A DNA stretch of 41,720 bases. It comes from Acidimicrobiaceae bacterium (lineage in GTDB: Bacteria > Actinomycetota > Acidimicrobiia > Acidimicrobiales > RAAP-2). Position numbers and translations under genes: made by a program. Positions 27,971 through 40,148 of this stretch are shown here, piece after piece (position 1 is the first letter of the stretch; every line of letters begins with the position of its first letter). The notes beneath the pieces are model-generated. The model saw only the letters and a program-made list of their open reading frames with translations, searched no databases and was not told the origin of the DNA. Location of the stretch: positions 28,639 to 70,358 of the forward strand of contig PLKM01000029.1 of the NCBI GenBank assembly GCA_003141095.1, read 5' to 3'.

Positions 27971-28564
27971 TCAGATCTCCGAGCGAACGACGGCGTTCGC
28001 GAGCACGTTGAGCGCCATGAGCCAGGACTCCGGGTTGATTGAAAGGGCGTGCTCACCCTCGAGCGCAATCTGACCGAAGAACAGCGCGTACCAGATTCGC
28101 GCAAAGGCAACTCCGCTCATCCCGTCGGCGAGAAACTTCTTCTCATAGAGCGGCTGCACTATTTCCATGATCTGCAGGCTGGTCTCTTGCTTCGCGGCGG
28201 CGATGCCGGCAGAGGCGGTCATGTTGTGATGTGCGAAGGAGATGCTTTCAATGCGAAGAATTCGCCCCTCGTCACGCTCGGGGGTCTGCGCGTCGGTGAT
28301 CATTACCTGCAAGGCTGCACGCAGCTCTTGAGCCGTTTCAACGTGGCGTAGGGGCGTCGTGAAGATCTCCGCTTGACCCAAGAGCACCTGACGGAAGCGG
28401 TGCACGATGGTCGCCGCGATGAGGTCCTCGCGGTCACTGAAGTAGCTGTAGAGGAGGGCCACAGAGATTTCCGCCACGGACGCCACTCGTTTTACGCGGA
28501 ACTGCGTCAAACCGTTCCGCTCGATCTCGAACGCCGCCGACTCCAGGATCTTGTCACGCGTCAT
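27971..28564 (-). CDS. TetR-family transcriptional regulator
   Basis: The 197-residue protein has the TetR N-terminal helix-turn-helix: ILESAAFEIERNGLTQFRVKR, quoted as a pattern, then VASVAEISVALLYSYFSDREDLI (about residues 30-52). The C-terminal ligand-binding half is helical and without recognisable ligand motifs. ATG 28564 is preferred over TTG 28600 because TATCCT ends six bases before it and the HTH starts soon after. It lies directly behind the E2 gene on the same strand and is the only regulator gene in the catabolic island, so it is the likely local regulator (inference). Confidence 0.88.
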   Translation of the reverse strand: MTRDKILESAAFEIERNGLTQFRVKRVASVAEISVALLYSYFSDREDLIAATIVHRFRQVLLGQAEIFTTPLRHVETAQELRAALQVMITDAQTPERDEGRILRIESISFAHHNMTASAGIAAAKQETSLQIMEIVQPLYEKKFLADGMSGVAFARIWYALFFGQIALEGEHALSINPESWLMALNVLANAVVRSEI

Positions 28565-28570
28565 CTCTGG

Positions 28571-28576
28571 AGGATA
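28571..28576 (-). promoter_or_regulatory. Putative leaderless -10 box of the TetR gene
   Basis: TATCCT on the minus strand ends six bases before ATG 28564, giving the regulator its own possible leaderless transcript next to the E2 stop. Confidence 0.4.
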
Positions 28577-28603
28577 CCTCTCGGGCCCGGTGTCACTCAA
28601 TGC

Positions 28604-29953
28604 TTAGAACTCCCTGCTCCAGTCACGGGTATCGAGAATCTCGGCGACGTGGCGAAGAAACCTCGCCGCGTAGGCGCCGTCGACCGCTCGATGGTCAAAC
28701 GTGAGCGCCAAGAGCCCCACCGAGTGAATGGTGATCGCCTCACTGCCGTCGGGCATCGCCACGACGACGGGCTTCCTCGCCACCCCATCCGTCGACAAGA
28801 TCGCCACCTGGGGTTGATTGATGACTGCCCCGGTGAGCAGTGTTCCAAACGGCCCAGGATTCGTGATGGTGAAGGTTCCGCCCGCCATGTCGTCCACGCC
28901 GAGCTTCTTTTCGCGCGCGCGAGTGGCGAGGCCGCGGATCCTGCGCGCGATCGAGCGGAGCGTGTCGTTGTTCGCGTGGTCAACCACCGGCACGACGAGA
29001 CCGTCGTTGTCGAGGTCCACGGCGATACCAAGATTGATGTTGTGATGGATAATGAGTTCGTTGTCGCCTACCGATGCGTTGAGATGCGGAAAAGACTGCA
29101 GCGCCTCAACCGCGGCGACCGCGATGAAGGGCAGGTAGGTGAGGCTAAAGCCCTCCTGCTCCTTAAAGGAGGCGCCGACCAGTCGCCGCACGACGTCGAC
29201 ACGTTCGTAGTCGACCTCCTTCACCATCAAGGTGTGCGCCGACGTTGCCTTCGAACGCACCATGTGCTCAGCGGTGAGTCGACGAATCTTGGTGAAGGGA
29301 ATGATCTCGTCGGGTAGATCCTGGCGCGACCTTGAGGGCGTGGTCGAAATGATGAGTTCAACGTCACGCCGGGTGATGCGCCCCTCGGGACCAGTGCCCG
29401 TCACGGAACTCTCACTGATTCTGTGGTCGCTCAACAGACGCCGCACGACGGGCGACAGCGACGGCACGCCACGACGGGGCGCCGTCTCGGAGGTGGCCTT
29501 CGCCGCGTCGATGACGTCCTGGCGGGTGATCCGTCCGCCCGGTCCGCTACCGGTCACGTCATCCGCGCTCAGATTGTGCTCTTCGAGGAGTCGGCGCACC
29601 ACGGGGGAGAGTTGTGCGCCGTCACGAACCGGTTTGTTCGCAGTCGCTCGGACCGGTGCTGGCTCTGGGGCCACGCGGTCTTTCGTCGGCTTTGTTGAAG
29701 CGGTCGCGGGAGCGCCTGGATCGCCGCCGATAACCGCGAGGACGGTGCCCACGTCGACGGTGACGCCCTCGGCGACCAAGATCGCGCTTAAGACGCCGTC
29801 AGTCTGGGCCGGTATCTCGGTGTCGACTTTGTCGGTCGACACCTCAAAGAGGGGCTCGCCGCGAACAACGACATCGCCAACGGCCTTGAACCATTTCGTC
29901 ACCGTTCCGTCGGCGACGGTTTCGCCCAGTTGGGGCATCGTGACCTCAGCCAT
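28604..29953 (-). CDS. Dihydrolipoamide acyltransferase (E2) with two subunit-binding domains
   Basis: E2 transfers the acyl group made by E1 to CoA in 2-oxoacid dehydrogenase complexes. The 449-residue protein has one lipoyl domain (residues 1-77, lipoylated Lys42 in STDKVDTE), an Ala/Pro linker, then two peripheral subunit-binding domains in tandem: LSPVVRRLLEEHNL to about residue 151 (from 115) and LSPVVRRLLSDHRI to about 202 (from 166). The catalytic domain follows and ends with FDHRAVDGAYAARFL, the active-site His motif. One binding domain is the norm. ATG 29953 is preferred over TTG 29962 because GAAGG fits it. E1 genes lie at the far end of the island, and acyl specificity cannot be read. 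Confidence 0.93.
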   Translation of the reverse strand: MAEVTMPQLGETVADGTVTKWFKAVGDVVVRGEPLFEVSTDKVDTEIPAQTDGVLSAILVAEGVTVDVGTVLAVIGGDPGAPATASTKPTKDRVAPEPAPVRATANKPVRDGAQLSPVVRRLLEEHNLSADDVTGSGPGGRITRQDVIDAAKATSETAPRRGVPSLSPVVRRLLSDHRISESSVTGTGPEGRITRRDVELIISTTPSRSRQDLPDEIIPFTKIRRLTAEHMVRSKATSAHTLMVKEVDYERVDVVRRLVGASFKEQEGFSLTYLPFIAVAAVEALQSFPHLNASVGDNELIIHHNINLGIAVDLDNDGLVVPVVDHANNDTLRSIARRIRGLATRAREKKLGVDDMAGGTFTITNPGPFGTLLTGAVINQPQVAILSTDGVARKPVVVAMPDGSEAITIHSVGLLALTFDHRAVDGAYAARFLRHVAEILDTRDWSREF

Positions 29954-29992
29954 CGCGCTCAACCTTCATGAGGTGGAATTGGCAACGTTGCA

Positions 29993-31060
29993 TCAGTTGG
30001 TCCCTCCGAGCCGCGAGGCCATCCAGTCAGCTGCGAGCGGGCGGTGCCGGTAGATCACGTTGGCGCAGCCGTGGTTGCCCTCTTCGAGCAGGATGAGCTT
30101 CGACTCGCCCCCCGCTTCGTGGGCGAGTCGCTCGCCGTCCTGCCACGGGAAGAGCCGATCCCGCTTGCCCATGATGACCAGGAGCGGTGTCGTGATCTTC
30201 GAGGCGTGGCCCTCGAGGGTCATTTCCCAGGCGCGCTTTTCGGCCTCTTCCGGCGAGGACGAAAATGACCGGACTTCGAACGCGTGGCGGGTGAGTGGAT
30301 TCAGGTCGTTCCACGCGGCGCCGAGGTTGTACGGACCCGCCAGCGCGATGGTTCCTCGAATCGGCAGGTCCGAGCTCGCCAAGCGGGCGGCGTAGAAGCC
30401 GCCGAGACTCACGCCCCAGACGCCGATGCGGTCATTGTCCACCTGGCCCATCTGGTGCAGATGGTTGATGACCGCCTCGCCAACCTTGTCCCACTCGGGA
30501 CGCACGGGCAGGGTCCATTCGGCTTCGCCCTGGCCCGGGCCGTCGAGCGCGAAGGTGGCCATGCCGCGGTCGAGAAAGGCGCGTTCGACGTCACGGAACT
30601 CCTCCTTCGTGGAATCGAGTCCGGGTATCAAAATGACCGTGGGGTGGGGGCCGTCGGTAGACGGGAATCGGAAAATCCCGACCAGCTTGGACCCCTCGAA
30701 GGCGATCTCCTCACGTGTGGCGGGTGGGTCGAAAAGGGGAAGTGCTCGGTTGAGCGCGTCCACTGCTCGAGCGTGCGCGGCTTTTGCCTGATCCAGGTCG
30801 TGAACGAAGAGGAACTTTCCAAAATGGAAATACGTGGCGGCGCGCGCGAAGAACTCGCCCGCGGAGCGCGTTCGCCCCTCGCTCAGCGCGATCTCACCGA
30901 GGGTGAGATGCTCCTCGGCCCCCGCGCACCAGGCCGAACACCAGTCGTCCCAACGCTCCAGGCTCTTCGTGATGCGGGCGTAGTCGCTCGCGTCGACACC
31001 GTTCGCGGTGAATCGCGGCTCCCAATTTGTGACAGCCGTCTCCAAAAGAACGTCGACCAT
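29993..31060 (-). CDS. Alpha/beta hydrolase, dihydroxypseudooxynicotine hydrolase-like
   Basis: The 355-residue protein has the two-part layout of 2,6-dihydroxypseudooxynicotine hydrolase and related C-C bond or ester hydrolases: an N-terminal helical cap region (residues 1-115, with an AGAEEHLTLGEIALSEGR motif) and an alpha/beta hydrolase fold. The triad is visible: Ser218 in GVSLGG, Asp301 in GKRDRLF and His330 in EGNHGCAN; the fold's GLDSTKEEF loop is also present. No signal peptide, so cytoplasmic. The ATG at 31060 has AGGGGGG upstream. It is transcribed towards the E2 gene (39-base gap) and divergently from the importer, so the two probably act on the same imported compound. Confidence 0.88.
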   Translation of the reverse strand: MVDVLLETAVTNWEPRFTANGVDASDYARITKSLERWDDWCSAWCAGAEEHLTLGEIALSEGRTRSAGEFFARAATYFHFGKFLFVHDLDQAKAAHARAVDALNRALPLFDPPATREEIAFEGSKLVGIFRFPSTDGPHPTVILIPGLDSTKEEFRDVERAFLDRGMATFALDGPGQGEAEWTLPVRPEWDKVGEAVINHLHQMGQVDNDRIGVWGVSLGGFYAARLASSDLPIRGTIALAGPYNLGAAWNDLNPLTRHAFEVRSFSSSPEEAEKRAWEMTLEGHASKITTPLLVIMGKRDRLFPWQDGERLAHEAGGESKLILLEEGNHGCANVIYRHRPLAADWMASRLGGTN

Positions 31061-31177
31061 GGCCCCCCTAGGACATCTGAATTGATGCCGATGGTAACGG
31101 ACTTGAGTGCCTCGTGGATAGGGCAGGACCTTTGAATCTTTTTCACCGGGGGTGTAAAGATTTCATGGTGTTTTGAA

Positions 31178-31292: not shown

Positions 31293-32540
31293 ATGAAAAG
31301 AAGAGGAAAACTCTTTCGCGCGTTCGGTGTGACTTCGGTCGCCGCCGCAACGGTACTGGTGATGGCAACGACGAGTGGTGCTTCGTCGAGTAGCTCCATT
31401 GCGAAAGGCGCGCCGGTAACCATCGGAATATCACTTTCGTTGTCCGGTGACTTCTCCGCGGACGGCCTGGCGTACCAACAGGGCTACAAACTGTGGGCCG
31501 CCGACGTGAACGCCTCGGGCGGGCTGCTCGGACACAAGGTTGTCTTGGACATCGTGTCTGACGCCTCCAGTCCAACTCAGGTGGTAACGAACTATCAGAA
31601 GTTGGTCTCGGTCGACCACGCAAATCTGACCTTCGGTCCGTTCTCAACGTTGCTGACGCTTCCCGCCGCCCAGACGGTGAACCGTTACGGCTACGCCATG
31701 CTCGAGGGTGCCGGCGGTGGACCATCGGTCTTCCAGGCGGGACTGAAGAACGTCTTCGACGTGACGCTGCCCGTGGCCTACGACCTGCAGCCGTTTGCAA
31801 AGTGGCTGACGTCACTTCCAGCGAGTACGCGTCCGAAGACCATTTCGTACGTGACCTCGAACGACCCGTTCACCCAGCCCGTCGTCCAGGAAGCGCAGAA
31901 GCTGATCGGCAAGAAGCTCAAGACCGTGTACAACAACGTCTTCCCCGCTGAAGCGACTGACTACACCTCCATCGCCGACGCGGTTGCCGCGGCGAAGGCG
32001 CAAGTTGTGGTTCTTGGTTCTGTTGACGTGCCGACGGTGTCGGCCTTCATGCAGGCGTTTGAGCAGGCGCACTACACGCCCGAGGCATTCGTCGCCACGG
32101 CCGGACCAGACCAGGGCGCCGCGTTCATCAACGCAGTGGGCGCTGGTAACGCCGACGGCATGATGGTGCCAAACTCGTGGTACGGCGGTTCGAAGAACCC
32201 GGCCAGCGTGAAGATGGTTGCCGAGTACGTGAAGAAGTACGGTGGCACCGCCGCCGGGGTCAACGCCGACATCGCAGAGGCCTATTCGGTTGGTCAGGTC
32301 ATGGCTCAGGCCGTGACCGCGACGAAGGGCTTTGACAACGCGAAGATCATCAAGTACCTCCACTCTGGTGTGACAATGAGCAGTGTTCAGGGTTCGGTGA
32401 AGTTCAACTCACTGGGTGAGAACACGGCCCAGACGGCCTACACCTTCCAGTGGCAGGGTTCGAAGTTCGTCGAGGTCAACCCGGTGGGCGACCCCGGCTC
32501 CTCGAAGATCCTCTTCCCGAAGCCGGCGTGGGGGAATTAA
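31293..32540 (+). CDS. Branched-chain-amino-acid-type ABC transporter substrate-binding protein
   Basis: The 415-residue protein is a HAAT-family (LivJ/K type) periplasmic-binding protein: VTIGISLSLSGDFSADGLA, then GYKLWAADVNASGGLLGHKV with the later TFGPFSTLLTLPAAQTVN segment, all typical. The N-terminus is a signal peptide (KRRGKLFRAFG, hydrophobic core to about residue 28), but there is no Cys lipobox, so a lipid anchor is not predicted. The ligand is unknown; relatives bind amino acids, amides, urea and aromatic acids. It is the first gene of the operon. Confidence 0.93.
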   Translation: MKRRGKLFRAFGVTSVAAATVLVMATTSGASSSSSIAKGAPVTIGISLSLSGDFSADGLAYQQGYKLWAADVNASGGLLGHKVVLDIVSDASSPTQVVTNYQKLVSVDHANLTFGPFSTLLTLPAAQTVNRYGYAMLEGAGGGPSVFQAGLKNVFDVTLPVAYDLQPFAKWLTSLPASTRPKTISYVTSNDPFTQPVVQEAQKLIGKKLKTVYNNVFPAEATDYTSIADAVAAAKAQVVVLGSVDVPTVSAFMQAFEQAHYTPEAFVATAGPDQGAAFINAVGAGNADGMMVPNSWYGGSKNPASVKMVAEYVKKYGGTAAGVNADIAEAYSVGQVMAQAVTATKGFDNAKIIKYLHSGVTMSSVQGSVKFNSLGENTAQTAYTFQWQGSKFVEVNPVGDPGSSKILFPKPAWGN

Positions 32541-32543
32541 CCC

Positions 32544-33428
32544 TTGAATAGCTCTGCTCTTATCCATGCCGTCATCGATGGCGTCCTGACCGGATCGGTC
32601 TACGCCCTCATGGCCACGGGGTTGACCCTCATCTTCGGAGTAATGGACATCATCAACGTGGCTCAGGGGATCTTTGTCATCCTCGGCGCTTACTTGAGTT
32701 ACGCCCTCTCCGTTCACTGGGGCATCGATCCCTTTGTTGGCTTGGTCATCACGATCCCCACGCTGTTTCTGGTGGGGATCGTGGTGGAGCGGGCGTTCAT
32801 TGGGAGGCTGAAGGGTCCGGAAAAGACCGCCATGTCGATTCTGGTCACCTACGCAATCTCTCTCGTCATTGAAGGTTCGCTGAACATGATCTTTTCGGTC
32901 AACGACGTACAGATCTCGGCGTCGTACGTGACCAAGACCTTTCGAATCTTCGGGGTCTACTTCGCCTACATCTACGTCTATGGGTTCATCCTGGCGGCGG
33001 TCTTGCTGACCGCGTTGTACCTGATGCTGTACCGGACGCGTTTCGGAGCCAGTATTCGAGCGTCCTTAGCCGACCAAACCGCCGCTGCGCTGGTCGGCAT
33101 CGACGTCAAACGAGTTTCTACTATCTGCTTCGGTATTGGCATCGCCGTCACCGCCGCCGGCGGCATGGTCTTCGGCGCCACCAACGCGTTCAACGCGAGC
33201 ACGAGCTACGACCTGATCTCTCGACTACTCGTCATCATCGTGTTGGGCGGGATGGGAAGTTTGGGCGGGGCACTGCTCGCGGGCATTCTCATGGTGACGT
33301 TGGAGGACATCGTCGGTGTGGTCTGGTCGCCGGTGTGGTCGATCATCGCCTTTTACATCGTGCTGGTCATTGTGCTTTCGTTGCGTCCCCAGGGACTCTT
33401 TGGTAAGCAGTCTGCGAGGATCGCCTAG
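32544..33428 (+). CDS. livH: Branched-chain-type ABC transporter permease (LivH-like)
   Basis: The 294-residue protein is one of the two membrane subunits of the importer. It has about eight hydrophobic segments and the LivH hallmarks GVLTGSVYALMATGLTLIFGVMDIINVAQG near the N-terminus (only the pattern is given) and VIIVLGGMGSLGGALLAGI in the loop that contacts the ATPases. Start TTG lies three bases after the binding-protein stop with GGGGG upstream. It overlaps livM by one base (TAGTG). Confidence 0.92.
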   Translation: MNSSALIHAVIDGVLTGSVYALMATGLTLIFGVMDIINVAQGIFVILGAYLSYALSVHWGIDPFVGLVITIPTLFLVGIVVERAFIGRLKGPEKTAMSILVTYAISLVIEGSLNMIFSVNDVQISASYVTKTFRIFGVYFAYIYVYGFILAAVLLTALYLMLYRTRFGASIRASLADQTAAALVGIDVKRVSTICFGIGIAVTAAGGMVFGATNAFNASTSYDLISRLLVIIVLGGMGSLGGALLAGILMVTLEDIVGVVWSPVWSIIAFYIVLVIVLSLRPQGLFGKQSARIA

Positions 33429-34426
33429 TGCTACAGAAAAAGAATCTCTTGTGGCTCGCGGCACTCGCCATCGCGCTCTTCGTGCCGAGCATCATCACGA
33501 ATCCCGCGTATCGCCAGATCGCGGTCATCACGCTCATCTTCACGGCGTGCGCCACGTCATGGAACATGTTCTCCGGCTACTCCGGCTACGTTGCGCTTGG
33601 TTCGGCGGCCTTTTACGGGACCGGGGCCTACACCATGGGCCTGTTGGCAGTCCATTGGCACGTGCCCGCGAGCGGTGACATGTTCTGGTTGGTGCCGGTG
33701 GGCGGACTCGCCGCAATGCTGGTGGCTATCCCCGTCGGGCTCATCGCCCTACGCGTTCGACGACACACCTTCGTGGTGATCACCATCGCGATCTTCTTTG
33801 TCTTCCAACTCGCCGCCATCAACTTCGGTTTCACCGGCGGGACGGGCGGCCTCACGCTGCCCTACGTTCCCTGGTTGATTCAGGACTATCACATTCCCTT
33901 TTACTACGTGGCCCTGGCAATCCTGGTCTTTGCGATCGCGCTCTCGGCAGCGGTTCGCCGTTCGCGTTTCGGACTGCAGCTGCTCGCCATTCGCGACGAT
34001 GAGGATCGCGCGCTGGGTCTCGGGGTAAAGGTGTTCCCGGTGAAGCTGACGGGATTTGCCATGTCGGCGTTCACCATTGGAATGTGTGGTGCCCTTTACG
34101 CGATGATGCAGGGTCAGATTTACCCGCAGTTCGTCTTCGACCCGATCTTTGACATCTCCATTGCCTTGATGGCGTTCTTCGGAGGCTTCGGCACGCTGCT
34201 CGGTCCAATACTTGGAGGACTCATACTCGAGTCTTCGCAGCAGTATCTGACGGTCTCGTACTCGAACGGTTCGCTGTACCTCATTCTCTTCGGCGTCCTG
34301 TTCCTGCTCGTGGTGCTGTTCATGCCCCAGGGCATTGTCGTCTACGTCAAAGAATGGTGGACGAAGCGCCAAGACCGCATGGCGGCGGCGAGCGAAGCGG
34401 CCCTGGCGCCAGGAATCAACTCATGA
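33428..34426 (+). CDS. livM: Branched-chain-type ABC transporter permease (LivM-like)
   Basis: The 332-residue protein is the second membrane subunit. It has about nine hydrophobic segments, ATSWNMFSGYSGYVALGSAAF near the N-terminus (pattern), FGLQLLAIRDDEDRALGLGV, and the EAA-like ALMAFFGGFGTLLGPILGG coupling loop. A basic C-terminal tail follows the last segment. Starts with GTG in the livH stop and ends in the livG start (ATGA), so the operon is coupled. Confidence 0.92.
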   Translation: MLQKKNLLWLAALAIALFVPSIITNPAYRQIAVITLIFTACATSWNMFSGYSGYVALGSAAFYGTGAYTMGLLAVHWHVPASGDMFWLVPVGGLAAMLVAIPVGLIALRVRRHTFVVITIAIFFVFQLAAINFGFTGGTGGLTLPYVPWLIQDYHIPFYYVALAILVFAIALSAAVRRSRFGLQLLAIRDDEDRALGLGVKVFPVKLTGFAMSAFTIGMCGALYAMMQGQIYPQFVFDPIFDISIALMAFFGGFGTLLGPILGGLILESSQQYLTVSYSNGSLYLILFGVLFLLVVLFMPQGIVVYVKEWWTKRQDRMAAASEAALAPGINS

Positions 34427-35202
34427 CCACTCTCTTGAGCGCCCAGAGCATCACCAAGGCCTTTGGGGGCGTGCAGGCGCTGAATCTCTGTTCGCTGGAC
34501 GTTGAGAAGGGCAGTGTTACCGGTCTCATTGGACCGAACGGATCGGGGAAGACGACACTGTTCAACGTCGTGACCGGTTACGTGAAACCTGATGCGGGAA
34601 CGGTCACCTTCGAGGGCAGCGACATTACGGGCGCTCGACCTAACAAGGTGTTCGCCATGGGTATCGGGAGGACCTTTCAGCTCACTCGGATTTTTGGCCG
34701 AATCAGCGTGCTGGAAAACATGCTGGTCGCGACGCAACGAGAAGAGAGCTGGCTGCGCGGGCTCACCCGATCGATGTCCTCCAAGTCCGAACTGGATGCG
34801 GCGATGGAGTGGCTGGACTTCGTGGGAATCGCCCGTCTGGCGAAACTGCCCGCCGGTTCACTTTCCTACGGTCAGCGAAAGCTCTTGGAGCTGGCCTACG
34901 TGCTGGTTGCCGACCCCGACGTGATCTTGCTGGACGAACCCGCCGGTGGTGTGAATCTCACCCTCATCAACGAGATTAGTCAAAAGATTCGTGCGCTGAA
35001 TAAGGAAGGCAAGACGTTCTTGATCGTTGAGCACAACATGGAGTTCGTGATGAATATCTGCGACTCGGTCACCGTCATGCATCAAGGGGCGAATCTCGTG
35101 ACCGGAACGCCCGCTGAAGTACGCAGTAATCCTCTCGTCCTCGACGCCTACCTGGGCGGCGGAGAAGAACAGGACTCGATCGAGGAGGTCGCCAATGGCT
35201 GA
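34423..35202 (+). CDS. livG: Branched-chain-type ABC transporter ATP-binding protein (LivG-like)
   Basis: The 259-residue ATPase has Walker A GPNGSGKTT (about residues 40-48), Q-loop, signature LSYGQRKLLELA and Walker B VILLDEPAGGVN, then the switch His in IVEHNMEFVM. Signature is LSYGQ rather than LSGGQ, as usual in this family. The ATG at 34423 is preferred over upstream in-frame starts because the domain begins LLSAQSITKAFGG and it overlaps the livM stop. It ends eight bases inside livF. Confidence 0.93.
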   Translation: MTTLLSAQSITKAFGGVQALNLCSLDVEKGSVTGLIGPNGSGKTTLFNVVTGYVKPDAGTVTFEGSDITGARPNKVFAMGIGRTFQLTRIFGRISVLENMLVATQREESWLRGLTRSMSSKSELDAAMEWLDFVGIARLAKLPAGSLSYGQRKLLELAYVLVADPDVILLDEPAGGVNLTLINEISQKIRALNKEGKTFLIVEHNMEFVMNICDSVTVMHQGANLVTGTPAEVRSNPLVLDAYLGGGEEQDSIEEVANG

Positions 35203-35944
35203 TTCTGACGCCTTCGTGCGCTTTACGGGAGTCGTCGCCGGCTACGGCGGCGGCGACGTACTGAAGGGCGTGTCCTTCGACGTTCCCAAGGGTGGCGTGA
35301 CGTGCATCGTGGGCCCCAACGGTTCGGGCAAGTCAACCTTGCTCAAGACCGTGAGCGGGCTTGTTCGTCCTCGCCTGGGAGAGATCTGGTTCAAGGGCAC
35401 GCAGTTGGTGGGCCTGAGTCCGAAGGAGATCTTGCGGCTCGGGGTTGTCCAGGTGCCTCAGAACCACAGCCTCTTTCGCGAGATGACCGTGCACGAAAAC
35501 GTGGAACTGGGTGCGTTTCTCGTGAAGGACCGCAAGGTCATCGCCGAGCGCATGGACACGATCCGAGAGATGTTCCCCATCGTCGCCGAGCGGGCCAAGG
35601 ATAAGGCGGGCAGCCTCTCGGGCGGCCAGCAGCGCCTGGTCGAATTTGCCCGGTGCCTGATGCTCGAACCCGAACTGGTGGTGCTCGACGAGCCTTCGAT
35701 GGGCCTCGACCCGAAGACTCTTCGCTCGATGTTCAACACCATCAAGATGATGAACAGCGTGGGTCGCACGGTGCTGCTCGTCGAACAGAACGCCCGTCAG
35801 GCCCTTCGAATGAGCCACTTCGGCGTGGTGCTGGAGAACGGTCAAGTGCGCCTCTCGGGCACCGGGTCGGAAGTCTTGAATAATCCAGAGATTGGCGCGC
35901 TGTATCTGGGCGGGTCGATCGAAGAGACCAAGCACGTCGCGTAG
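35195..35944 (+). CDS. livF: Branched-chain-type ABC transporter ATP-binding protein (LivF-like)
   Basis: The 249-residue ATPase is the partner of the LivG-like subunit: Walker A GPNGSGKST (about residues 39-47), VPQNHSLFREMTVHEN, signature LSGGQQRLVEFARCL, Walker B LVVLDEPSMGLD and VEQNARQALRMS. With it the importer has all five subunits. The start overlaps livG by eight bases. Confidence 0.94.
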   Translation: MADSDAFVRFTGVVAGYGGGDVLKGVSFDVPKGGVTCIVGPNGSGKSTLLKTVSGLVRPRLGEIWFKGTQLVGLSPKEILRLGVVQVPQNHSLFREMTVHENVELGAFLVKDRKVIAERMDTIREMFPIVAERAKDKAGSLSGGQQRLVEFARCLMLEPELVVLDEPSMGLDPKTLRSMFNTIKMMNSVGRTVLLVEQNARQALRMSHFGVVLENGQVRLSGTGSEVLNNPEIGALYLGGSIEETKHVA

Positions 35945-35979
35945 TCCGTGGCTGTACGGGAAAGTCAAAGGAATTGAAC

Positions 35980-36915
35980 ATGAGTGAGAGCATTCGCATT
36001 GGTTGGATTGGGTGTGGACGTATGGGCACCGCCATGGCCACGAGACTGGTTGTTGCGGGCAACGACGTCGTGGTGACGAACCGCACCCGAGCGAAAGCTG
36101 AGGTCCTGGGAGCGCTCGGTGCGCAGGTGGTCGACAGTCCGCGCGACCTCGCGACCTGTGACGTCGTGTTCATCATGGTGGCGGCGAACGCTGACCTCAT
36201 CGACGTGACCCTGGGCGCCCAGGGCGTGCTCTCGCACGAGGAGCACGCGCCGCGGATCGTGGTTGACTGCTCGACCGTTTCGAGCGAGACCTCGGCGAGC
36301 GTGCGTGAGGCCTGTTCGTCGCGCGGCGCGGCATTTCTCGCGGCGCCGGTCAGTGGGAACCCGAAGGTGGTCGGTGCGGGTCAGTTGACCTTGGCGGTAT
36401 CGGGCACCCGGGAGGCCTTCGATGAGGTGCGTCCGTACTTTGACCAACTGGGCCAGGGTGTCACGTACGTGGGCGATGGCGAGGTCGCTCGACTCGTAAA
36501 GATCTGCCACAACATGTTCCTCGGCATCGTGACCCAGGCGATGGCCGAGATAACCGTGCTCGCCGAAAGCGGGGGCATCAAGCGAAGCGCCTTCCTGGAG
36601 TTCATCAACAACTCCGTGATGGGCTCGACGTTTACCCGCTACAAGACGCCGGCCTTCGTAAACCTCGACTTCAAGCCGACCTTCACGCCCGTGCTGTTGC
36701 GCAAGGACTTCGACCTCGGCATGGCCGCGGCGAAGAAGATGAGCGTGCCCATGCCCGTGTCCGCGCTCTGCACCGAGATTGTGGTGAGTGCCATCGGCGC
36801 CGGTTACGTCGACGAGGACTTCGCGGTGCTGCTGCTCGAAGAGGCGCGCGGCGCCGGGCTCACGATGGAGCCAGAGAACATCGACGTCGATGACGGACTA
36901 AGTGGGGTGAAGTGA
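35980..36915 (+). CDS. NAD(P)-dependent beta-hydroxyacid dehydrogenase (3-hydroxyisobutyrate dehydrogenase family)
   Basis: The 311-residue protein has the NAD(P)-binding GWIGCGRMGTAMA (residues 8-20), the substrate-binding APVSGNPKVVGAG (family consensus APVSGG), and the catalytic Lys174 in LVKICHNMFLG. Family members oxidise 3-hydroxyisobutyrate, tartronate semialdehyde and other beta-hydroxyacids, so it probably handles a small hydroxyacid from the imported compound. The ATG at 35980 has AAAGGA; it lies 35 bases after livF, in the same direction. Its stop overlaps the M24 gene start. Confidence 0.88.
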   Translation: MSESIRIGWIGCGRMGTAMATRLVVAGNDVVVTNRTRAKAEVLGALGAQVVDSPRDLATCDVVFIMVAANADLIDVTLGAQGVLSHEEHAPRIVVDCSTVSSETSASVREACSSRGAAFLAAPVSGNPKVVGAGQLTLAVSGTREAFDEVRPYFDQLGQGVTYVGDGEVARLVKICHNMFLGIVTQAMAEITVLAESGGIKRSAFLEFINNSVMGSTFTRYKTPAFVNLDFKPTFTPVLLRKDFDLGMAAAKKMSVPMPVSALCTEIVVSAIGAGYVDEDFAVLLLEEARGAGLTMEPENIDVDDGLSGVK

Positions 36916-38165
36916 TGCGTGACGGATTCGGACCAACGATGATGACTCCCGGGCACATGGGCGTGGACTTCGAGATGCGCGTCGATTTCGATCGTCTGCG
37001 AAACTACCGCCTGGCCCGTGCGCGCGAAGCGCTCGAGGCCAGTGAGTTTGGCGCGCTGCTGCTCTTTGACTTCTACAACATTCGCTACGTGTCGGGTACC
37101 TGGGTCGGGGGAGCGCTCGGCGACAAGATGACGAGATACTGCCTGTTGACCCGGGGTGGTGAGCCAATGGTGTGGGACTTCGGATCAGCCGTTCGCCACC
37201 ACCAACTGTTTTCCCCGTGGCTCGAGCCGGACAACTGTCGCCCGGGCATGCTGGGCCTGCGAGGAGCGATCGCGCCCCGAGCGGGCCTCTTCGAGTCAGC
37301 CGTGAAGGAGCTCGTGGGAATCCTGGGCGACCAGGGCCTGCTCGGTCAGCCCATTGGCATCGACATCGTCGAGCTACCCTTCCTCTTCGAGATGCAAAAG
37401 GCCGGCGTCGAGATCCGTGACGCCCAGCAGACCATGCTCGACGCGCGACAGATCAAGTCCCAGGACGAGCTGATGCTGCTCTCCCAGGCGGCCGCCATGG
37501 TCGACGGCGTCTACCAGGACATCTTCGAAGCGCTCAAGCCCGGGGTTCGAGAGAACGAGATCGTGGCGCTGGCGAACAAGCGCCTCTACGAGATGGGCTC
37601 GGATCAGGTCGAAGCCATCAACGCGATCTCGGGCGAGCGTTGCAATCCGCACCCGCACAACTTCACCGACCGCATTATTAGACCAGGTGATCAGGCGTTC
37701 TTTGACATCATCCACTCGTTCAACGGCTATCGAACGTGTTACTACCGCACGCTGGCGGTGGGAAGCTCGACGGCGCCTCAACGAGACGCGTACACCCAGG
37801 CGCGCGAGTGGATGGACAAGGCCATCGACCTCGTTCGCCCCGGCATCGGTACCGACCAGATCGCCCGTGCGTGGCCGGCCGCGACGGAGTTCGGCTTCGC
37901 CAACGAGATGGCCGCCTTCGGTCTGCAGTTCGGGCACGGCCTCGGCCTCGGACTGCACGAACGACCGGTCATCAGTCGTCTCAACTCGCTCACCGATCCC
38001 ATCGAATTGAAGACCGGCATGGTCTTTGCCCTCGAGACCTACTGTCCGGCGTCTGACGGCGTGTCGGCGGCTCGCATCGAGGAGGAGATTGTGGTCACCG
38101 ATGACGGTCCCGCAATACTCACCAAGTTCCCCGCGCAGGAACTCATGATCGCCAACAAGTACTAG
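36915..38165 (+). CDS. M24-fold (creatinase/aminopeptidase P-like) hydrolase with altered metal site
   Basis: The 416-residue protein has the two-domain M24 architecture: an N-terminal creatinase-like domain (ALLLFDFYNIRYVSGT, about residues 45-60) and a pita-bread domain from about residue 160. The expected metal ligands are Asp264 (FFDIIHSFNGY), His341 (FGHGLGLGLHE), Glu374 (ALETYCP) and Glu389 (RIEEEIVVT). The second Asp of the DxxGxxxxxxxD signature is Cys275 (RTCYYRT). Relatives include prolidases, creatinase, ectoine hydrolase and the DMSP lyase DddP, so small-molecule hydrolysis is at least as likely as peptidase action. The ATG shares a base with the previous stop; a GTG three bases earlier is an alternative start. 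Confidence 0.87.
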   Translation: MRDGFGPTMMTPGHMGVDFEMRVDFDRLRNYRLARAREALEASEFGALLLFDFYNIRYVSGTWVGGALGDKMTRYCLLTRGGEPMVWDFGSAVRHHQLFSPWLEPDNCRPGMLGLRGAIAPRAGLFESAVKELVGILGDQGLLGQPIGIDIVELPFLFEMQKAGVEIRDAQQTMLDARQIKSQDELMLLSQAAAMVDGVYQDIFEALKPGVRENEIVALANKRLYEMGSDQVEAINAISGERCNPHPHNFTDRIIRPGDQAFFDIIHSFNGYRTCYYRTLAVGSSTAPQRDAYTQAREWMDKAIDLVRPGIGTDQIARAWPAATEFGFANEMAAFGLQFGHGLGLGLHERPVISRLNSLTDPIELKTGMVFALETYCPASDGVSAARIEEEIVVTDDGPAILTKFPAQELMIANKY

Positions 38166-38175
38166 GAGTAGCAAA

Positions 38176-39183
38176 ATGTCAACGACCACCACCACCGCGA
38201 GTCCGACGGACCTCAACGCGAAGTTGAGCCTGTACCGTAGCCAGTTAGCGCTGCGTCTTTTCGAGCAGCGCGCCTACGACCTGTTCCTCGAGAATCTGGT
38301 CAAGGGCACGAGTCACCTCTCGCTCGGCCAGGAGGCCATCGCGTCGGGTTTCGCCGCGGCGATGCGCCCCACCGACTGGACGTTCGCGACCTATCGCGGC
38401 CACGCGCACACGTTGGCGCGGGGTGTTCCCATGACGCCGGTGCTCGCGGAACTGCTGGGCCGCAGCAACGGACTCATGGCCGGAAAGGGTGGCTCCATGC
38501 ACCTCACCAGCGTCGAGCACGGGGTCATGGGTTCCTATGCCATCATCGGCGCCCACCTGCCCATTGCGTGCGGTGCGGCCTGGAGCGCGCAGTACCGCGG
38601 CACCGAGCAGGTGGCGGTGTGCTTCTTCGGCGACGGTTCGACGAACATCGGCGCCTTTCACGAAGCGCTCAACTTCGCCGCCGTGTGGAAGCTGCCGGTG
38701 ATCTTCGTCTGCGAGAACAACCTCTGGATGGAATACACGCGTACGTCCGAGGTGACCGCGGTGGCGAATCCGGCGGCCGATCGCGCGAGCGCCTACGGGC
38801 TGGAGAGCATCATCGTCGACGGCAACGACGCGGACGCGGTCTACGAGGTGGCGTTGGCGGCGATCACTCGGGCCCGCGAAGGGGGCGGGCCGAGCATGAT
38901 CGAGGCAAAGACCTATCGACACGGCGGCCATTCGAGGGCCGACCCGGGCAAGTACCGCCCCGCGGGCGAGGTGGCGGAGTGGCTCGCGAAGGATCCGATT
39001 CCCTTCTACCGAGCTCGCCTGGTTGAACTGGGCGCGTCCGACGAGCAGTTGCGCGAGATCGAAGAGCTGGTCGAGGCGGACGTCGAGCTCGCCACGCAAG
39101 AGGCGAAGGCCGGCGGCGTACCCGGAGAGGATCTATTGATGAAGGATGTTTGGGCAGATGGAGGCTCGTCATGGCGCAATTAA
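38176..39183 (+). CDS. Thiamine-dependent 2-oxoacid (pyruvate/acetoin-type) dehydrogenase E1 alpha subunit
   Basis: The 335-residue protein has the E1-alpha motifs: SLGQEAIASGFAAAM, TYRGHAHTLARG, GKGGSMHLT and the thiamine diphosphate motif starting GDGSTNIGAFHEALN (from residue 152) and ending with VCENN (about 176-180). Acetoin dehydrogenase and pyruvate dehydrogenase alpha subunits share these; the substrate cannot be told. AGGAG precedes the ATG ten bases after the M24 gene. The C-terminal 13 bases overlap the E1 beta gene. Confidence 0.93.
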   Translation: MSTTTTTASPTDLNAKLSLYRSQLALRLFEQRAYDLFLENLVKGTSHLSLGQEAIASGFAAAMRPTDWTFATYRGHAHTLARGVPMTPVLAELLGRSNGLMAGKGGSMHLTSVEHGVMGSYAIIGAHLPIACGAAWSAQYRGTEQVAVCFFGDGSTNIGAFHEALNFAAVWKLPVIFVCENNLWMEYTRTSEVTAVANPAADRASAYGLESIIVDGNDADAVYEVALAAITRAREGGGPSMIEAKTYRHGGHSRADPGKYRPAGEVAEWLAKDPIPFYRARLVELGASDEQLREIEELVEADVELATQEAKAGGVPGEDLLMKDVWADGGSSWRN

Positions 39184-40148
39184 CGTTTCGTGAAGCAATC
39201 GCTCGGGGCATCGCCCAGGAGATGCGCCGCGACGAGTCGGTGGTGTTCCTCGGTGAGGACATCGGAGCCGCCGGGGGTGTGTTCAAGGGCACCGTCGGTC
39301 TGCTCGAGGAGTTCGGCGGCGTGCGAGTGCGCGACACCCCTATCAGCGAGCAGGCCATTCTGGGAGCGGCGATGGGAGCGGCGATGACTGGCCTCAAGCC
39401 CATCGCCGAGATAATGTTCGCGGACTTCTTCGCCGTGTGCTGGGACATCGTCGTGAACGAGATCGCGAAGAGTCGCTACATGACCAACGGTCAGTTGACG
39501 TTCCCACTCGTCATCCGCTCCGGCAACGGCGGTGGTCTGCGCTTCGGCGCCCAGCACTCGCAAAGCGTCGAGAACTGGGCGATGATGGTGCCCGGACTCA
39601 AGGTGGTCGTCCCGTCGACGCCGGCCGACGTCATCGGACTGATGGCGGCGGCGATCCGCGACCCCGATCCCGTCATCTTCCTCGAGGCGAAGGTCCTCTA
39701 CGCGTCAAAGGGCGATGTCCCCGACGGCGAGATCGTCGACTCGCTCGGCACCGCCAAGGTCCTGCGCCAAGGCTCCGACGCGACGCTGGTGGCGCTCGGG
39801 GCCATGGTGCCCAAGGCCATGGCCGCGGCCGATGAGCTCGCCGAGATGGGCGTCGACTGCACTGTCGTCGACGTTCGCTCGCTGGTGCCCCTCGATACCA
39901 AGACGCTCCTGCGCGAGATCGCCGCGACCGGCCGCCTCTTCACGGTCGAAGAGAACCCGCGGCTGTGCGGATGGGGCGGCGAGCTCGCCTCAATCGTGAG
40001 TGAAGAGATCTTCTACGATCTCGACGGTCCGATTGTCCGGATCACCACCCCGCACATCCCGCTCCCGGCGGCTGACGCACTCGAGGACTTGGCGATTCCC
40101 TCCATCGAGCGAATTGTGACAACGGTTTCCAAGTCAATGAACTCGTAG
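39171..40148 (+). CDS. 2-oxoacid dehydrogenase E1 beta subunit
   Basis: The 325-residue protein matches E1-beta subunits: LTFREAIARGIAQEMRRD, VVFLGEDIGAAGGVFKGT, RVRDTPISEQAILGAAMGAA, and the later SGNGGGLRFGAQHSQSVENW segment, then VDVRSLVPLDTKTL. ATG 39171 has GGAGG at 39160-39164. With the alpha subunit it forms the decarboxylating E1; the matching E2 is at 28604-29953 on the other strand, and E3 is not in the window. A hairpin without a T-tract lies downstream (40215-40236). Confidence 0.93.
   Translation: MAQLTFREAIARGIAQEMRRDESVVFLGEDIGAAGGVFKGTVGLLEEFGGVRVRDTPISEQAILGAAMGAAMTGLKPIAEIMFADFFAVCWDIVVNEIAKSRYMTNGQLTFPLVIRSGNGGGLRFGAQHSQSVENWAMMVPGLKVVVPSTPADVIGLMAAAIRDPDPVIFLEAKVLYASKGDVPDGEIVDSLGTAKVLRQGSDATLVALGAMVPKAMAAADELAEMGVDCTVVDVRSLVPLDTKTLLREIAATGRLFTVEENPRLCGWGGELASIVSEEIFYDLDGPIVRITTPHIPLPAADALEDLAIPSIERIVTTVSKSMNS

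Follow-up and report, generated by a model that had tools for sequence, protein, structure and literature searches.

Gene Content of the Locus

The window analysed here is the whole stretch of 41,720 nucleotides from an Acidimicrobiaceae bacterium (assembly GCA_003141095.1, contig PLKM01000029.1, positions 28,639 to 70,358 of the forward strand). One run of genes on the + strand comprises an ABC transporter of the branched-chain-amino-acid type (31293-35944), a 3-hydroxyisobutyrate-dehydrogenase (HIBADH)-family gene, an M24-fold gene and the two E1 genes of a 2-oxoacid dehydrogenase. The transporter begins with a periplasmic-type substrate-binding protein (31293..32540), recognised by Pfam as Peripla_BP_6. 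It continues with permeases of the LivH/UrtB type (32544..33428) and the LivM/UrtC type (33428..34426) and ATPases of the LivG type (34354..35202) and the LivF type (35195..35944). Profiles identified these last four components as well as the HIBADH-family gene (35974..36915), the TPP-dependent E1 alpha (38176..39183) and the E1 beta (39150..40148). The top solved relatives of the HIBADH-family protein are 3pef, 3pdu and 3doj, which we take to be gamma-hydroxybutyrate dehydrogenases or succinic semialdehyde reductases.

The M24 gene (36915..38165, + strand) starts within the end of its neighbour, as the stop of the HIBADH-family gene overlaps its start. Its frame is open throughout and, translated from the ATG at 36915, encodes 416 amino acids. 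The protein matches the Pfam family Peptidase_M24 (PF00557) with 131.9 bits, above the curated cut-off of 23, and Creatinase_N with 21.9 bits, slightly below the cut-off. Translation, profile, alignment, tree and structure model place it in a subfamily with the motif GYRTCYYRT, in which a Cys is found at a metal-ligand position. Two further M24 genes are present in the same genome.

Three genes on the - strand are divergent from this run. They encode an alpha/beta hydrolase (29993..31060), an E2 component of a 2-oxoacid dehydrogenase with lipoyl, E3-binding and acyltransferase domains (28604..29962) and a TetR-type regulator (27971..28600), the latter two assigned by profile. The nearest solved relative of the alpha/beta hydrolase is the 2,6-dihydroxy-pseudo-oxynicotine (DHPON) hydrolase 2jbw, with 152 bits against 64 for the next match. 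The imperfect inverted repeat between the divergent operons (31128..31169; 14-nt arms, 79%) is one that we infer to be a possible TetR operator. Farther off in the window, the ten genes scanned between 573 and 20211 are mostly housekeeping genes, including those for a RecG-like helicase, RNase III, Fpg, SMC, two SRP GTPases, TrmD and a fumarase-type lyase.

A Cysteine at the Position of the Bridging Aspartate

In M24 enzymes such as methionine aminopeptidase and aminopeptidase P, the second Asp of the metal site has a bridging role. The residues that the earlier note had assigned to this site were recovered by translation and alignment. They are encoded on the + strand by the codons of D264 (37704..37706), C275 (TGT, 37737..37739), H341 (37935..37937), E374 (38034..38036) and E389 (38079..38081), and the stretch around D264 and C275 reads FFDIIHSFNGYRTCYYRTLAVG. 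D264 and C275 are 11 residues apart, the same spacing as that of Asp260 and Asp271 in E. coli aminopeptidase P (numbered as in PDB titles), which we take to be its metal ligands. No Asp occurs in residues 265-290 of the translation. Given this and the spacing, C275 holds the position of the second, bridging Asp, which agrees with the earlier claim that a Cys replaces a metal-binding Asp. A shift of the alignment that would bring another Asp into the ligand position is ruled out by the same stretch of residues. Instead of the D-D-H-E-E of a canonical M24 metallopeptidase, the five ligand positions read D-C-H-E-E.

The cysteine is not the product of a sequencing or assembly error, as all 80 other loci have it. 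A scan of genome contigs confirmed at least 580 relatives, so many stretches that such proteins must be called common, not all of them necessarily of the Cys subfamily. The best 80 of these (75-96% identical) were kept, and a direct scan found the motif GY[RK]TCYYR in every one, with the Cys encoded by TGC in 69 and by TGT in 11. The family alignment has 81 rows, and Cys occupies position 275 in 79 of them; the remaining two have gaps there and belong to loci whose match phmmer had split. In the 48 rows of alignment A1, D264, C275, H341, E374 and E389 are all invariant. C243 is also invariant in these 48 rows, but it is Gly in L122.

The same residue was found at greater distances. A search of 198 genomes from the same phylum gave matches at 1e-20 in 41, often to other M24 subfamilies, and 22 matches of at least 550 bits in 20 of the genomes. 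The Cys motif was present in 21 of 21 such matches when the window's own was excluded, a set that may overlap with the 80 loci. It is present in homologues on Roseobacter plasmids (about 61% identity), and the Cys is found in homologues from Rhodococcus and Paenarthrobacter (53-56% identity). The Rhodococcus/Paenarthrobacter branch has Trp at position 348, where the main type has His. Two scans of viral contigs returned no relatives. The reading of C275 is correct, far beyond what chance would allow.

Phylogeny of the Cys-Containing M24 Proteins

A broad alignment of 77 rows, from which three fragmentary rows (L167, L170, L109) were omitted, gave the ligand patterns D-C-H-E-E (42 rows), D-D-H-E-E (25), D-C-H-E-G (5), W-C-H-E-E (2) and N-C-H-E-E (1). 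The remaining two rows, DoeA and a Mycobacterium protein, are quite unlike the others at these positions. L087 and L088, misaligned from extended frames, were dropped from the 80-row alignment together with L093, a copy of P0001.

Column 275 was removed before a quick tree of 71 rows was built, which omits L167, L170, L109, L131, L098, Mbrand2 and rows more than 92% identical. The window's family (32 rows) has a support of 100 in this tree. It belongs to a larger group of 44 rows, 41 with Cys and three with Asp, whose support is only 85. A DddP-like clade of 14 rows (support 100) adjoins this group and contains a second Cys group of five rows (support 99). Five canonical Asp rows and DoeA fall on the opposite side of the drawn root (90). 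The family thus lies apart from the canonical peptidases sampled, in keeping with the earlier view that the protein is not a standard aminopeptidase P or prolidase.

A more careful tree of 53 rows was made, additionally without the canonical M24 rows, DoeA, Mbrand1 and rows more than 85% identical; since it has no outgroup, its root is arbitrary. The window's family (24 rows) has a support of 100/100. The starred branches of this tree force at least two changes between Cys and Asp, and a single change was found in 0% of 200 bootstrap trees. In both trees, long branches that meet were flagged, and the topology fits a gain of Cys as well as a loss. Judging from these sequences, the Cys marks a clade and also recurs in another lineage, a second Cys subfamily on a branch of its own, which the window alone could not reveal.

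Several of the sampled proteins are worth describing in their own right. L139, L140, L157, L158 and L160 form a separate Cys subfamily (GYFFCVSRT) within the DddP-like clade, with Gly at the last Glu ligand position. L153, L154 and L156 form a Cys subfamily in which Trp or Asn replaces the first Asp and another Cys follows two residues later (W/N-x-C-G), at the position of DddP Asp297; their sequences may possibly encode a two-Cys site. Distant M24-like proteins (23-25% identical) are encoded at L014:16672-17775, L026:13396-14397 and L028:13862-14989. They carry the motif EITANFFEYGGQ.LRT, without Asp, and are likely another non-peptidase M24 branch. S. meliloti pSymA encodes an Asp-type DddP-like protein (L173:5812-7116) that may act on a quaternary amine; its gene lies next to those for members of the trimethylamine methyltransferase and isochorismatase families and for a glycine betaine transporter.

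Gene Neighbourhoods in Related Genomes

The arrangement around the M24 gene recurs in its closest relatives. A HIBADH-family gene, similar to gamma-hydroxybutyrate dehydrogenases, is the immediate upstream neighbour in 75 of the 80 loci, as measured from the start of the M24 match; the exceptions are L005, L006, L012, L038 and L063, and in L012 and L063 such a gene is nearby but outside the limits. At the chosen score thresholds, on which the following counts depend, E1 was found in 58 of the 80 loci, the ABC transporter in 55, E2 in 45 and a DHPON-hydrolase-like gene in 38. These counts are lower bounds because some of the loci are short; 71 of them reach 13 kb or more, and of these 71, 20 have no E1. 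The suggestion in the earlier note that the Cys might define a clade with transporter neighbours was borne out by the tree and by the 55 transporter loci. At the same thresholds, LacI (34), succinic semialdehyde dehydrogenase (SSADH)-like (27) and VOC (23) genes were counted in the 44 loci L037-L080 and in none of the 36 loci L001-L036. Earlier counts of genes "directly downstream" (E1 19, SSADH 16) and of HIBADH (52 of 80) were distorted by the upstream extension of stop-to-stop ORFs and were discarded.

More distant homologues vary this theme. Other genomes supplied 11 loci of the His348 type; ten of these have E1 and only six a HIBADH-family label, with lower scores. Of eight loci of the Trp348 type, two have E1, one has a HIBADH-family label and three have a strong DHPON-hydrolase-like match. 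The three plasmid members of this type have no E1. In all four of the Roseobacter plasmid regions that were read, M24, two E1 genes, a lipoyl-type gene, SSADH and E2 stand in a row. An SDR gene is directly 5' of M24 in these regions, and the HIBADH-family gene is some kilobases off in two of the four. The order in Streptomyces is HIBADH-family, M24, SSADH, VOC, fused E1, E2, flavin reductase, LLM oxidoreductase and an NMT1-type transporter, and the aldehyde dehydrogenase there is nearest to SSADH. Pfam was applied to 20 chosen unlabelled neighbour ORFs, which revealed PF01979 amidohydrolases near M24 in L180, L185, L192 and L197; most of the remaining ORFs were unrelated. A molybdopterin hydroxylase gene adjoins M24 in L193. 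Amidohydrolases of PF01979 belong to some of the neighbourhoods, as do LLM oxidoreductase, flavin reductase and RidA. The recurring operon seems to be an uncharacterised catabolic pathway of soil Actinobacteria and marine Roseobacters.

Predicted Fold

A first structure model, from 48 near rows, was poor (pLDDT 62.6) and was set aside. The AlphaFold2 model that was used is the second, built from 58 rows that included three distant M24 proteins encoded in the same loci. It reached a pLDDT of 78.4 and a pTM of 0.79, with values below 50 at residues 239-244. Four DddP chains ranked first in Foldseek (E 4.6e-26, TMq 0.77). VIA-align placed EutD first (Z 33.9, rmsd 2.8, 356 aligned), followed by prolidases (Z 33.6), creatinase (31.9) and DddP (31.7). 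As far as the model goes, the fold by itself cannot tell these functions apart.

Proposed Function and Alternative Readings

The gene set looks like a catabolic pathway and not like protein turnover. The M24 enzyme probably acts on a small molecule rather than on peptides, because the Cys subfamily keeps company with genes for uptake and breakdown. The presence of a 4-hydroxy acid dehydrogenase, an SSADH-like enzyme, a C-C hydrolase and, in some loci, of amidohydrolases, RidA and flavin oxidoreductases suggests that the compound contains nitrogen and is perhaps heterocyclic. From the same set of enzymes (dehydrogenase, SSADH-like enzyme, C-C hydrolase, amidohydrolases), C-N hydrolysis would be the likeliest task of M24. 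In the reading that we prefer, with a confidence evenly divided between acceptance and doubt, the protein would be a pita-bread-fold enzyme of a DddP-like subfamily, probably cytosolic, that most likely carries out C-N hydrolysis on an imported small molecule in a catabolic pathway and has a metal site altered by a thiolate.

From the residues, their conservation, the phylogeny, the predicted fold and the neighbourhood, we infer the following order of steps. The ABC transporter would import the compound, and the DHPON-hydrolase-like enzyme would cleave a C-C bond. The M24 enzyme would hydrolyse an amide, a lactam or a similar C-N bond. A product of the 4-hydroxy acid type would then be converted to a semialdehyde by the HIBADH-family enzyme, and an SSADH-like enzyme is encoded near the gene in many relatives. 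The E1/E2 complex would yield an acyl-CoA. D264, H341, E374 and E389 are probably still metal ligands, and the C275 thiolate would take over from the bridging carboxylate. With such a thiolate, the site would be expected to prefer softer metals (Fe, Zn, Co, Ni) or to hold a single metal.

Another use of the cysteine is a minority possibility. In a metal-free or metal-assisted hydrolase, C275 would be the nucleophile and form an acyl-enzyme with the help of the conserved His246, His248 and His341. The ectoine hydrolase EutD, a relative with the M24 fold whose structure with bound substrate is in the PDB, follows a covalent route and works without metal. Additionally, Cys and H341 persist where E389 is replaced by Gly (five rows) or D264 by Trp or Asn (three rows); these other subfamilies drop further ligands, which lends the nucleophile reading some probability, and the Cys/Asp state has changed at least twice. 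However, a metal-free enzyme would need none of the other four ligands, which are invariant in 48 of 48 rows of the window's family, and their retention favours a metal site with a thiolate. EutD is also ruled out as a precedent for Cys at this position, as its sequences have Pro there. A bolder form of the idea, which we regard as doubtful, is that in the GYRTCYYRT proteins and in at least one other lineage the M24 metal site became a cysteine-based catalytic site. This would make a new catalytic class of the pita-bread fold, at work in an undescribed pathway of small-molecule breakdown in Actinobacteria and Roseobacters.

The preferred hydrolase reading also has to contend with the fact that DddP, the nearest characterised full-length relative, is a lyase. 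The M24 protein might likewise eliminate a leaving group from a small substrate, with no hydrolysis. DddP entries are the only near-full-length matches among the 60 matches listed, and they rank first when the query ends at residue 285, as DddP chains do in the four best Foldseek matches. DddP is also the top NCBIfam model (NF043017). The protein nevertheless scores 91.1 bits against this model, whose equivalog cut-off is 600, and the DddP ligands Asp297 and Asp307 are not retained. A lyase of this kind is improbable.

Annotated plasmid copies are mostly called "Xaa-Pro peptidase family protein", a name that is probably misleading. This label, the fold and the highest-scoring PDB matches of the catalytic domain, which are prolidases (86 bits), would agree with an ordinary aminopeptidase P or prolidase that tolerates a changed ligand. 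Its place in the trees, the operon, the match to DddP over the full length and the two other M24 genes in the genome speak against such a peptidase, which is very improbable.

Pantothenate breakdown presumably proceeds via 4-hydroxy and 4-oxo pantoate, and the activities presumed for the HIBADH-family relatives would suit it. The M24 enzyme could then be the orphan pantothenase (EC 3.5.1.22) that cleaves pantothenate, with the HIBADH-family and SSADH-like enzymes converting pantoate to dimethylmalate and E1/E2 converting ketoisovalerate to isobutyryl-CoA. The nearest relatives fit, with 4-hydroxy acid dehydrogenases for the HIBADH-family protein and SSADH for the Streptomyces aldehyde dehydrogenase. 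E1 alpha scores higher with human pyruvate E1 (199 bits) than with the entries named 2-oxoisovalerate E1 (139), but this counter-argument is weakened by the 187 bits with the Thermus 2-oxo acid dehydrogenase 1um9, which we take to be of the branched-chain type, so the E1 type does not decide the question. This identification is the least credible of all, as the annotated genes include none recognised as encoding a dimethylmalate dehydrogenase and the DHPON-hydrolase-like gene has no place in the pathway. The available text of PMC10393543 reports the protein of pantothenase as unidentified.

Comparison with Known M24 Enzymes

Over its full length, the sequence points to DddP (4s01, 4rzy, 4s00, 4b28), a metalloenzyme and DMSP lyase of the M24 fold, as the nearest characterised relative; the match includes the N-terminal domain. 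Four metal-ligand positions are shared, aligned to DddP Asp295, His371, Glu406 and Glu421. DddP keeps the second Asp (Asp307), whereas the M24 protein has Cys275. DddP Asp297 is also not retained, with Ile at position 266, and the distance from the first Asp to the second ligand position is one residue shorter than in DddP. The protein therefore lacks the full set of six ligands (Asp295, Asp297, Asp307, His371, Glu406 and Glu421), which the available text of PMC4108388 reports to be invariant in DddP. By its sequence, the protein is a member of an uncharacterised DddP-like M24 subfamily that the literature searched does not describe; a limited search found no paper on the GYRTCYYRT subfamily.

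The ectoine hydrolase EutD/DoeA (6twj, 6twk, 6yo9; TIGR02993) has the same fold and is a small-molecule C-N hydrolase in a catabolic operon, like the setting proposed for the M24 protein. However, none of the five ligand positions is alike (E-P-Y-M-T in S. meliloti DoeA against D-C-H-E-E), and the TIGR02993 score of 67.8 bits is below the equivalog cut-off of 613. Creatinase (1chm, 1kp0, 7yto), also a small-molecule hydrolase of this fold, has lost its metal ligands. Its sequence match is weak (29-44 bits for 1chm and 7yto), and the M24 protein does not show a creatinase-like loss. The comparison with creatinase made in the earlier note is thus weak, because four of five ligands are kept here and none in the ectoine hydrolase compared. 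Prolidase and aminopeptidase P share the fold and four of five ligands. They have the bridging Asp, whereas the M24 protein has Cys, belongs to another clade and has small-molecule catabolic neighbours. The repeated change between Asp and Cys is a natural test of the role of the bridging carboxylate in M24 enzymes. The Cys-containing M24 protein is a variant of a known fold and not a new kind of system.
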